Assembly (NCBI RefSeq): GCF_016629565.1
Contig: NZ_AP023057.1
Span: 868,001 to 932,000 of the forward strand
Direction: 5' to 3'
Source: Nitratiruptor sp. YY08-10
GTDB taxonomy: Bacteria > Campylobacterota > Campylobacteria > Campylobacterales > Nitratiruptoraceae
DNA: 64,000 bases
This document shows, piece after piece, positions 46,720 through 50,532 of the stretch. The position numbers and the translations under genes are program-made. How positions within the stretch are numbered: the stretch's first letter is position 1; each line of letters begins with the position of its first letter. The notes beneath the pieces are model-generated. The model ran no database searches, was not told the origin of the DNA, and worked only from the letters and a program-made list of their open reading frames with translations.

Positions 46720-47544
46720 ATGGAATTTTTTCAAACGTTAGAAGCAATTATACAGATATCTGATCCGTACGAGAAGATGGAACAGTTTAAAAGGTTTTAT
46801 ACATTGTTTCAAAATGGCTCAATTCCAATGAATCACGAACAAAAAAGTATTATGTTTCATGAGCCCTCTTTTCGAGGTTTTTGCGAGATTGTTGATCCCC
46901 AAAAGGTACCAAGAAGAAGCAGATTCGGAACCGCTGAGGGGCGTGCAATACTTCTGCATGCCATAGCGCATATTGAGTATAGTGCCATTGATCTTGCATT
47001 GGATGCAGCCTATAGATTTAAAAATTTGCCAAAGCAGTTTTATAAAGACTGGTTGCAGGTAGCAGATGATGAATGTAGACACTTTTTAATGATAGATTCG
47101 CTTTTAAAAGAGCTTGGATACAGGTATGGTGATTTTCCTGTACATCAAGGCTTGTTTGATGCGGGCAAGGCGAGTCAAACCTTAATTGATCGGATGGCTG
47201 TTGTCCCAAGATATTTGGAAGCAAATGGACTTGATGCCAATCCCAGAATCATTCAAAAATTAAAAAAATTTCATGACCCTTTTGCTATAAAAATGACACA
47301 AGCACTCGATATTATACTTACTGAAGAGATAGCCCATGTGAAAAAGGGAGATTTTTGGTTTCGTTGGGCTTGTGAACAAGCGGGATGTGAAGATATTGAA
47401 AAAGAGTATTTTCAAAGAATCGAGAAAATCTACCCCGGAACGCTTCATAGCAAAACGGAGGTGAATATCGAAGCAAGAAAAAAAGCGGGTTTTAGTTGCC
47501 GTGAGATAGAGCTATTATCAAAAGAGAGAATAGATTGTGGATAA
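46720..47544 (+). CDS. DUF455 ferritin-like protein
   Basis: 274 residues, helical. Two iron-ligand-type pairs are seen: AIAHIEYSAIDLALD and DDECRHFLMI, plus TEEIAHVKKG, the E...ExxH pattern of ferritin-like proteins. Members of DUF455 are related to tRNA-modifying or diiron enzymes but their activity is unsettled. AAGAGG favours ATG 46720 over 46717 and GTG 46714. Confidence 0.82.
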   Translation: MEFFQTLEAIIQISDPYEKMEQFKRFYTLFQNGSIPMNHEQKSIMFHEPSFRGFCEIVDPQKVPRRSRFGTAEGRAILLHAIAHIEYSAIDLALDAAYRFKNLPKQFYKDWLQVADDECRHFLMIDSLLKELGYRYGDFPVHQGLFDAGKASQTLIDRMAVVPRYLEANGLDANPRIIQKLKKFHDPFAIKMTQALDIILTEEIAHVKKGDFWFRWACEQAGCEDIEKEYFQRIEKIYPGTLHSKTEVNIEARKKAGFSCREIELLSKERIDCG

Positions 47545-47570
47545 AAATTATCATTTGTTAAAAATTATCA
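47543..47570. repeat. Two 11-bp direct repeats upstream of the DegT gene
   Basis: AAAAATTATCA occurs at 47543-47553 and 47560-47570, 17 bp apart start to start, about 50-80 bp upstream of a TATAAT box. The spacing is about one and a half helical turns, so they could be regulator sites, but the region is very AT-rich. Confidence 0.4.
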
Positions 47571-47621
47571 ATATTAATCAAGAGCATTAAATATAAAAGA
47601 ATAGATTAAGTAGTAATTTAG

Positions 47622-47627
47622 TATAAT
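47622..47627 (+). promoter_or_regulatory. Candidate -10 box for the DegT-lpxK-argB operon
   Basis: TATAAT, 32 bases before the DegT start and in the 114-bp gap after the DUF455 gene. AAGGTAGGAG follows as ribosome site. Confidence 0.5.
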
Positions 47628-47658
47628 TTACTCAATATCCTTAAGGTAGGAGCAAGAA

Positions 47659-48786
47659 ATGAAAAAAATTCCTCTTTTTTCACTGCAAATAGACAGCAAA
47701 GAGATAGAGTCGATCAAAGAAGCTCTTGAACAAAAAAATAAGCGAGACGAACTTGAAAAAAGTTTTGCGCAATATATAGGATGCCCACACTCTTTGGCTA
47801 CATCCAATGAAACGGCCTCGTTGCATCTGGCAATGACGACGATAGATTTAAAACGGGGCGATAAGATTTTGTGTAGTGTCAATTCCTACCCAAATGTTCC
47901 CGAAGTAGTTCGCCATTTCGATGCAGAACCGATCTTTGTCGATATCTGTCCAGATGATTTCAATATCGATTTGGATGAGTTGGAAAAGATCCTTAGTAAG
48001 AACAAAAGCAAAAAGCTCAAAGGTGCTATCATTTCACATATTGCAGGCCAGCCTACAGATCTTGACAGACTGTATGAAATTGCACGTGAATATAATATCC
48101 TCATTATTGAAGATGCTTCCAATGCACTGGGTGCGACATACAACGGAAACAAAATAGGCTCTTTGGAAGCAGATATCACCACATTTAGTTTCAATCCACA
48201 TAAACGTTTTACGACGAACAATGGCGGAATGATGTGTTTGAAAAATGAAGAGTTGGAAGAAAGAGCAAGACTCTTGCAAAGAAACGCAATGGTTCGCAGT
48301 GAATGGGATGAAGAGGGACATCTTGGATATATCTATGATGTCGTTGATATCGGTTTGGAATATGATATGAGTGATTTAGAAGCCGCGTTTAATCTTTCTC
48401 AACTGCAAAAAAACGATGCAGCGATAGAGCGAAGACGTCAAATTGCGGCAATCTACCATAAAGAGTTGGCAAATACACCGCATATTGAACTTCCAAAAGA
48501 GGTAAGAGACCATATCTATTCGCTTTTTATTATCAAGATAGATAAAAACAGAGACTCTTTTGCAAGAGAACTCTATAAAAGAGGAATAGAAGTAGGCCTT
48601 CACTATATTCCCCTTCATCTATTGAGTTACTATAAGCAAAAATATAGTTTGCGCATTAACGATTTTCCAAAAGCGTTGAGAAACTATCAACAAATTCTCT
48701 CAATTCCAATACATTCGGGAATGAGTGATGAAGATGTATATTATGTTATAGAACAGATCAAAGAGGTGGCTCAATCAAGGGTATAG
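47659..48786 (+). CDS. DegT/DnrJ/EryC1/StrS-family aminotransferase
   Basis: 375 residues. PLP motifs: LATSNETASLHLA, IEDASNALGATYNG and the PLP lysine in SFNPHKRFTTNNGGM. These enzymes transaminate nucleotide-linked keto-sugars for surface polysaccharides, or belong to the PseC/ArnB type; the product is not readable. Positioned directly before lpxK, consistent with a cell-envelope role. Confidence 0.88.
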   Translation: MKKIPLFSLQIDSKEIESIKEALEQKNKRDELEKSFAQYIGCPHSLATSNETASLHLAMTTIDLKRGDKILCSVNSYPNVPEVVRHFDAEPIFVDICPDDFNIDLDELEKILSKNKSKKLKGAIISHIAGQPTDLDRLYEIAREYNILIIEDASNALGATYNGNKIGSLEADITTFSFNPHKRFTTNNGGMMCLKNEELEERARLLQRNAMVRSEWDEEGHLGYIYDVVDIGLEYDMSDLEAAFNLSQLQKNDAAIERRRQIAAIYHKELANTPHIELPKEVRDHIYSLFIIKIDKNRDSFARELYKRGIEVGLHYIPLHLLSYYKQKYSLRINDFPKALRNYQQILSIPIHSGMSDEDVYYVIEQIKEVAQSRV

Positions 48787-49715
48787 TCCATTTTTTCGAG
48801 GAGGGATTTTATCGTCCCTCTGCTTGGCACAGAATTATCTCTTTCGCACTTTTTCCATTCAGTATACTCTATTGCAGCGTTGCGATTTTAAAAAAGATTC
48901 TTCCAAAAGAGCAAGATTTCGATATACCTATAATAAGTGTTGGAAATCTCACAGTTGGCGGAAGTGGGAAAACGCCAATCGTTGCCGCACTGGCAAGAAG
49001 ATATGACAAATGCGCAATAGTGCTTCGAGGGTTTCATAGACACAGCAAGGGACTACGTCTTGTCAGTAATGGCAAAAGTTTGCTATGTAATGCAAAAGAG
49101 TGCGGGGATGAAGCGGTAATGCTTGCGCAAATGGTCCCGAATGCAGTTGTTATCGTCTGCGAAAGAAGAGAAGAGGGGATCGAAAAAGCAAAAGGATTAG
49201 GCTGTAACGTTCTATTTTTAGATGATGCATTTCATAAACCCTACAAAAAGTTTGATATCCTTATCGATATTAAGACACCCAATAGGCTCTGTCTTCCAAG
49301 TGGTCCTTATAGGCTTCCAAGAGCGTTTTTGAAAAAGGCCGATTTGGTCGTTCAAGAAGAAAGAGATTTTTTGCGAAACGTTTGGATCAGCAATCCAAAG
49401 AAAAAGATGGTTTTATTAACGGCCATTGCCTATCCAAAAAGAGTGCTTCGCTATGTACCGAAAGGAACAAAAGCCTATTTTTTTGAAGACCATCACCACT
49501 TTACAAAAGAAGAACTTGAGCAAATATGGCACAAAGAAAAGCCGGATGCATTTCTGGTTACAAGGAAAGATGCGGTAAAATTGGAGCAGTTTTCCTATCC
49601 TCTTTCTATTTTGGAGCTTGAGCTCACTATTTCTAAAGAGGTGTATGAAAAGGTTGATAGATACATAAAGGAGTATGATGCAAAAAAAGATTCAAATCGT
49701 TCAGACACTGCTTGA
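48774..49715 (+). CDS. lpxK: Tetraacyldisaccharide 4'-kinase with a non-canonical start
   Basis: 313 residues from ATC 48774. LpxK phosphorylates lipid A disaccharide at the 4' position on the inner membrane. Residues 51-67 hold IPIISVGNLTVGG and SGKT (Walker A), followed by GFHRHSKG and DDAFHKP. The frame is open from 48732 to 49715 but contains no ATG, GTG or TTG before GTG 49020, which would remove the Walker A site. ATC 48774 (GAGGTGG four bases upstream) and ATA 48783 are the candidates; ATC gives an N-terminus with FY at residues 12-13, matching my memory of Helicobacter LpxK. It overlaps the DegT gene by 13 bp and argB by 38 bp. Without a rare start, only a frameshift would explain it. 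Confidence 0.75.
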   Translation: MKGIVHFFEEGFYRPSAWHRIISFALFPFSILYCSVAILKKILPKEQDFDIPIISVGNLTVGGSGKTPIVAALARRYDKCAIVLRGFHRHSKGLRLVSNGKSLLCNAKECGDEAVMLAQMVPNAVVIVCERREEGIEKAKGLGCNVLFLDDAFHKPYKKFDILIDIKTPNRLCLPSGPYRLPRAFLKKADLVVQEERDFLRNVWISNPKKKMVLLTAIAYPKRVLRYVPKGTKAYFFEDHHHFTKEELEQIWHKEKPDAFLVTRKDAVKLEQFSYPLSILELELTISKEVYEKVDRYIKEYDAKKDSNRSDTA

Positions 49716-50532
49716 TGCTCTTCCATTCATCAAAAAATTTCGTGATGAGATTTTTGTCATCAAATATGGAGGAAGTGCCCAAACAGATCAGAAACTCAAA
49801 GAGAAATTTGCACAAGATATCTTGCTGCTTTATACCGTTGGTATCAAGCCGGTAATCGTGCACGGAGGAGGAAAGAGAATCACAGAGATTCTCAGCAGAC
49901 TCAAAATCGATACGACTTTTATCGATGGTCAGCGGGTAACGACAGCTGAAGTGATGGAGATCGTTGAGATGGTTTTAAGCGGAGATATCAATAAGGAGAT
50001 CGTGAGTCTGTTAAACAACCATGGAGCCAAAGCGATAGGGGTAAGTGGGAAAGATGCCCATTTTATCACAGCGCGTCCGAAAGATTTTGAGAAGTTTGGC
50101 TATACAGGTGTTATTGACCATATCGATCCAAGCGTCGTACAAAATCTGTTGCAAGAGCAGTTTGTACCAGTAATCGCCCCTATTGCTGCAAGCAATCAAT
50201 TGGGACACCCCGGATACAACATCAATGCAGATCTGTGTGCCAGCAAAGTAGCAGGTGCGCTGAAGGCCAAAAAGATCATCTTTTTGACCGATACTCCAGG
50301 GGTATTGGATAAAGATGGAAAACTCATTTCGACACTTACGGAAGAGAAAATTGAGCTGTTGAAAAAAGATGGAACGATTAGTGGGGGCATGATACCGAAA
50401 GTGGATGCCTGCCTTGAAGCGATTGATGGAGGTGTGGAAAAGGCTCATATCATCGATGGAAGAGTGGAACACTCGCTTCTTTTGGAGATCTTTACAAGCG
50501 AGGGTATCGGAACACAAGTGTTAGGAGGATAA
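49678..50532 (+). CDS. argB: Acetylglutamate kinase
   Basis: 284 residues, amino acid kinase fold. FVIKYGGSAQTD at the N-terminus, VHGGGKRITE, INADLCASKVA, FLTDTPGVLD and GTISGGMIPKVDA are typical. Second step of arginine synthesis. AAAGGAG at 49667-49673 favours ATG 49678; ATG 49675 is one codon upstream. Overlaps lpxK. Confidence 0.95.
   Translation: MQKKIQIVQTLLDALPFIKKFRDEIFVIKYGGSAQTDQKLKEKFAQDILLLYTVGIKPVIVHGGGKRITEILSRLKIDTTFIDGQRVTTAEVMEIVEMVLSGDINKEIVSLLNNHGAKAIGVSGKDAHFITARPKDFEKFGYTGVIDHIDPSVVQNLLQEQFVPVIAPIAASNQLGHPGYNINADLCASKVAGALKAKKIIFLTDTPGVLDKDGKLISTLTEEKIELLKKDGTISGGMIPKVDACLEAIDGGVEKAHIIDGRVEHSLLLEIFTSEGIGTQVLGG

Follow-up and report, generated by a model that had tools for sequence, protein, structure and literature searches.

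A conserved AUC codon within the upstream aminotransferase gene as the probable start of lpxK in a genus of Campylobacterota

Introduction

Native AUC starts are known from few bacterial genes. A related start is that of infC of E. coli, which begins with AUU and is subject to feedback by IF3. The lpxK gene considered here resembles infC in having a native near-cognate AUH start that is mismatched only at the third base, but it encodes a lipid A kinase rather than a translation factor, lacks the feedback logic, uses AUC and begins within an upstream gene. lpxK is also generally held to be essential. A second point of comparison is provided by overlapping bacterial genes that are translationally coupled through ATGA-type junctions. 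In these pairs, as in the present one, the start precedes the stop of the upstream gene and the Shine-Dalgarno (SD) sequence lies inside that gene, whereas the lpxK start is AUC and the overlap is 13 nt long. Closest in codon is rnhC of Listeria monocytogenes, whose ATC start is reported as experimentally confirmed in the available part of the source (PMC13068326); on the same partial account, which mentions no overlap with an upstream gene, it is like lpxK a conserved gene in which the AUC start is fixed, and it differs in being another gene in another phylum. A literature search below full-text level returned no report of an AUC start for lpxK of Nitratiruptor. Here we describe such a start in a 64,000-nucleotide stretch of the genome of Nitratiruptor sp. 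YY08-10 (the window) and compare it with the same locus in related genomes.

Results

The lpxK reading frame and its missing canonical start

The LpxK frame is open from 48732, immediately after an in-frame TGA (48729-48731), to a stop that ends at 49715. Its product is LpxK, scoring 412.5 bits with the NCBIfam equivalog NF001892 (cut-off 327) and 116.7 bits with TIGR00682 (cut-off 91.95). The original prediction held that this frame contains no ATG, GTG or TTG ahead of GTG 49020, itself located after the Walker A segment, and a scan of the whole frame from 48732 bore this out. Initiation at GTG 49020 is too late for a working kinase. Among the 60 large non-redundant open reading frames of the window, lpxK is the single one whose first canonical start lies more than 45 codons in. 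The features of the locus are collected in Table 1. At the other end of the gene, the argB open reading frame (ATG 49675) overlaps lpxK by up to 41 nt (49675-49715), and both ends of lpxK may be overlapped by neighbors, the aminotransferase gene on the 5' side and argB on the 3' side.

Table 1. Features of the lpxK start region, in window coordinates
Feature	Position	Strand	Observation	Basis
Upstream DegT-type (PseC-like) aminotransferase gene	47659..48786	+	TIGR03588 285.6 bits, below 423.5 cut-off	Open reading frame
Shine-Dalgarno-like AAAGAGGTG	48760..48768	+	Aminotransferase GAG codon within it has an invariant third base, 16/16	
lpxK (tetraacyldisaccharide 4'-kinase)	48774..49715	+	313 codons from ATC plus stop	NCBIfam NF001892; genus alignment
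ATC, inferred lpxK start	48774..48776	+	16/16 genus genomes; TAA before ATC in L002 and L011; constrained A	
ATA, alternative start proposed earlier	48783..48785	+	Unconserved in genus	
Walker A segment NLTVGGSGKTP	48945..48977	+	In LpxK frame, 5' of GTG 49020	
GTG, first canonical in-frame start of lpxK	49020..49022	+	Past Walker A	

Conservation of the ATC codon

lpxK was found in 59 of 60 relatives and in all 22 genomes at the family level, 16 of which (our own included) make up one genus, an assignment that for most of them rests on a kinship label. Three of the loci (L005, L008 and L012) missed the first motif pattern and were read otherwise, and all 16 were kept after orienting. The original prediction placed the start at ATC 48774. 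The aligned codon is ATC in every one of the 16 genomes and is preceded by a GAGGT(G) ribosome-binding site at a matching distance; in our genome this is GAGGTG 48763-48768, which falls within the closing codons of the aminotransferase gene, 5 nt ahead of the ATC. Throughout, 56-58 codons separate the ATC from the Walker A Asn, and a canonical start between the preceding in-frame stop and the ATC is absent from all 16 genomes. In L002, the closest relative (77% identity), and in L011, an in-frame TAA directly abuts the ATC, which precludes a start further upstream and leaves a frameshift almost no space. An upstream frameshift error that would restore a normal start, one of two refutations anticipated for the prediction, is therefore excluded in these two genomes. 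The other was a sequencing error exposed by relatives with ATG at the aligned position; the relatives lack such an ATG, and an error of this kind is rejected.

Downstream of the ATC, 13 of the 16 genomes have no canonical start within 16 codons. The first canonical codon is a TTG at codon 3 in L009, an ATG at codon 10 in L008 and L017, and falls at codons 20-38 in 11 further genomes of the genus; L001 and L020 have none between the ATC and the Walker A Asn. The TTG of L009, three codons past the ATC, could serve as a start in that genome. In the alignment of the 16 LpxK proteins, I1 is the first invariant column, residues 2-8 all vary, and E9 is the next invariant position. These comparisons rule out a sequencing error and make it very probable that lpxK has a real, inherited and conserved AUC start.

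Synonymous constraint in the overlapping aminotransferase gene

The last 13 nt of the aminotransferase gene (48774-48786) overlap lpxK, and the overlap has this length in all 16 genomes. Read in the aminotransferase frame, the A of the ATC closes a Lys, Gln or Arg codon, and the T and C open a Ser codon. The A is free of constraint from the aminotransferase protein, which is served by AAA or AAG and by CAA or CAG alike. The codon over this A is AAA in seven genes, CAA in six, CGA in two and AGA in one; when mapped on a tree of these 16 genomes it changed at least eight times, and the A was always kept. Across the codon alignment of the 16 aminotransferase genes, 31 columns hold only Lys, Gln or Arg, and the one with A as third base in every gene is the column over the ATC. 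Invariant third bases occur in four of 349 columns, namely GAT 230, CAG/ACG 366, GAG/AAG 369 (within the SD sequence) and the column overlapping the ATC, and the ATC is itself one of four out-of-frame triplets, out of 370, that are identical in all 16 genes. Each gene's own codon usage would predict ATC in 4.6 of the 16 genomes, against 16 observed (log10 P = -9.5, a value that assumes independent genomes, which they are not). In L020 the codon over the ATC is CAA although none of the other seven Gln codons of its aminotransferase gene is CAA. For Ser, the aminotransferase genes use AGY about half of the time, yet never at the codon that overlaps the ATC.

Some points weigh in the opposite direction. 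Ser column 300 of the aminotransferase is likewise TCN in all 16 genes, and the invariant third bases of columns CAG 366 and GAT 230 have no obvious cause. Column 366 (CAG, window 48754-48756) sits just 5' of the SD sequence. The T and C of the ATC, and the SD sequence, which covers conserved Lys-Glu-Val codons, owe their conservation partly to the aminotransferase. The codon and the SD sequence are kept beyond the needs of the upstream protein.

Starts of lpxK outside the genus

In all 70 analysable loci from other Campylobacterota, the Walker A Asn is preceded by a canonical start 45 or more codons upstream. This set drew on 74 loci (L031-L104) of 80, of which one was truncated and set aside, leaving 73, three of these being the genus's own; the six lpxK loci from other phyla (L105-L110) stood outside the count. 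Most starts fall 53-61 codons before the Asn, in agreement with the position of the ATC. A sister-genus locus (L014) encodes the same AKSRV tail of the aminotransferase as GCA AAG AGT AGA GTA TAA, without ATC, and has a TTG three bases after the stop. Apart from the truncated L025, the remaining family outgroups carry GTG or TTG at about this position. The sole further lpxK frame without ATG, GTG or TTG seen outside the genus belongs to L024 (G057, an 82% complete MAG), and the lone sister compared with it has ATG.

Among the lpxK frames of L034-L104, the earliest canonical codon to follow the stop is ATG in 24, TTG in 22 and GTG in 21, compared with 186, 57 and 32, respectively, for the other open reading frames of these loci (Fisher 3e-6, with species that are non-independent and a rule that does not identify true starts). 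By this rule GTG and TTG are commoner in lpxK than in the neighboring frames, which suggests that weak lpxK initiation may be an order-wide trait. For infC of the genus (L111-L126), the earliest canonical codon past the in-frame stop is TTG in all 16 genomes. This TTG sits four codons in, some way 3' of an AAGGAG-like stretch.

RNA elements and initiator tRNA

No RNA family was matched in 47500-50000 at E values up to 1, and no conserved RNA structure was found around the start, where the consensus folding energy of the 16 sequences is about -0.2 kcal/mol. An unusual initiator tRNA was considered as an explanation for the AUC start and rejected. The anticodon-arm pattern GGGNTNATAACCC was matched in 15 of the 16 genomes, and among the matches listed the anticodon is CAT or TAT and never GAT; as a pattern match, this is only a hint.

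Alternative readings of the locus

The true start could instead be another near-cognate codon just downstream, which in this genome would be ATA 48783, offered in the original prediction as a second option. This ATA overlaps the TAG stop of the aminotransferase gene, and in L009 the corresponding codon is TTG. The option fared poorly in the genus, where six different codons (ATA, GTA, CTA, CTG, TTA or TTG) occupy the aligned place in the 16 genomes. The SD sequence is 14 nt from the ATA compared to 5 nt from the ATC, and a start at the ATA would give no reason for the A of ATC to be constrained. We regard initiation here as very improbable.

It is also conceivable that the ATC is kept for the aminotransferase only and that LpxK starts at a canonical codon within its N-terminal helix, yielding a shortened enzyme that resembles the solved LpxK chain 4ehw, which aligns only from query position 21. 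An ATG is indeed present at codons 22, 24 and 20 of L005, L006 and L007, respectively. This genome and L020, however, have no canonical codon 5' of the Walker A Asn, E9 and P15 of LpxK are invariant in the genus, and the third-base constraint at the Lys/Gln/Arg codon is not a protein constraint, which together make such a shortened kinase highly improbable.

A C-terminal fusion of LpxK to the aminotransferase through a -1 frameshift would fit the frame relationship, as lpxK lies in the -1 frame relative to the aminotransferase gene with the same overlap in all 16 genomes. An X XXY YYZ heptamer is nevertheless absent, in 16 of 16 genomes, from the region running from 45 nt before the Lys/Gln/Arg codon to the aminotransferase stop, and the TAA abutting the ATC in L002 and L011 would confine any -1 shift to the 13-nt overlap. 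In the family outgroups the two genes are separate and lpxK starts after the stop. The probability of a frameshifted fusion is accordingly very slight. That a normal start was lost from the assembly through sequencing error, or that lpxK is a pseudogene, is refuted by the relatives and has next to no probability, as the ATC is common to all 16 genomes, several of them near-complete, and the lpxK frame is intact with its motifs.

Discussion

Our findings are best explained, and with high probability, by a start of lpxK at AUC 48774 that is read by the ordinary initiator, positioned by GAGGTG and reached by ribosomes finishing the aminotransferase gene. Under this proposal, the initiator tRNA with its CAU anticodon would translate the AUC in spite of a mismatch at the third position. 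Because the aminotransferase gene contains both the SD sequence and the start near its 3' end, ribosomes would arrive there while translating that gene, and would reach its stop about 10 nt beyond the AUC. Most LpxK would then probably be made through re-initiation or local recruitment. The overlapping arrangement probably dates back to the common ancestor of the genus, or earlier, and has been retained since.

Work in other systems bears on how efficient such a start might be. In E. coli, the accessible portion of one study describes IF2 as boosting re-initiation and elevated IF3 as reducing re-initiation when an SD sequence is lacking, and describes inhibition by excess IF3 of initiation at non-canonical starts (PMC2268962). 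In vitro, third-base pairs weaker than Watson-Crick are partly tolerated by IF3, the weakest giving very low yield, according to the part of the report available to us, in which the IF3 titration set omitted AUC with CAU (PMC10158994). For lpxK we infer fMet initiation at the AUC, coupling to the aminotransferase gene, low yield and sensitivity to IF3; low LpxK output is to be expected. As the original prediction proposed, a start of this kind might make expression dependent on IF3 and might limit lipid A synthesis.

Why AUC has been retained may relate to the gene that it overlaps. The base after the ATC is A in 10 of the 16 genomes, and an ATG in its place would there read ATGA, ending the aminotransferase three residues early. 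Avoidance of a shortened aminotransferase and a need for low LpxK are candidate reasons for the retention of AUC. A more ambitious proposal, which we put forward tentatively and consider possible rather than probable, is that AUC acts as a selected throttle, holding LpxK at a low dose tied to translation of the aminotransferase, to IF3 and to initiator-tRNA levels. AUC would then represent the extreme of order-wide weak lpxK starts, at a site where ATG would usually shorten the aminotransferase.

The consequences extend to how such genes are annotated, as gene callers restricted to ATG, GTG and TTG would remove the ATP-binding site from LpxK. In this genus, an AUC codon kept in 16 genomes, and recognizable from synonymous constraint on the aminotransferase gene, provides an evolutionary test of a non-canonical start that does not depend on proteomics.
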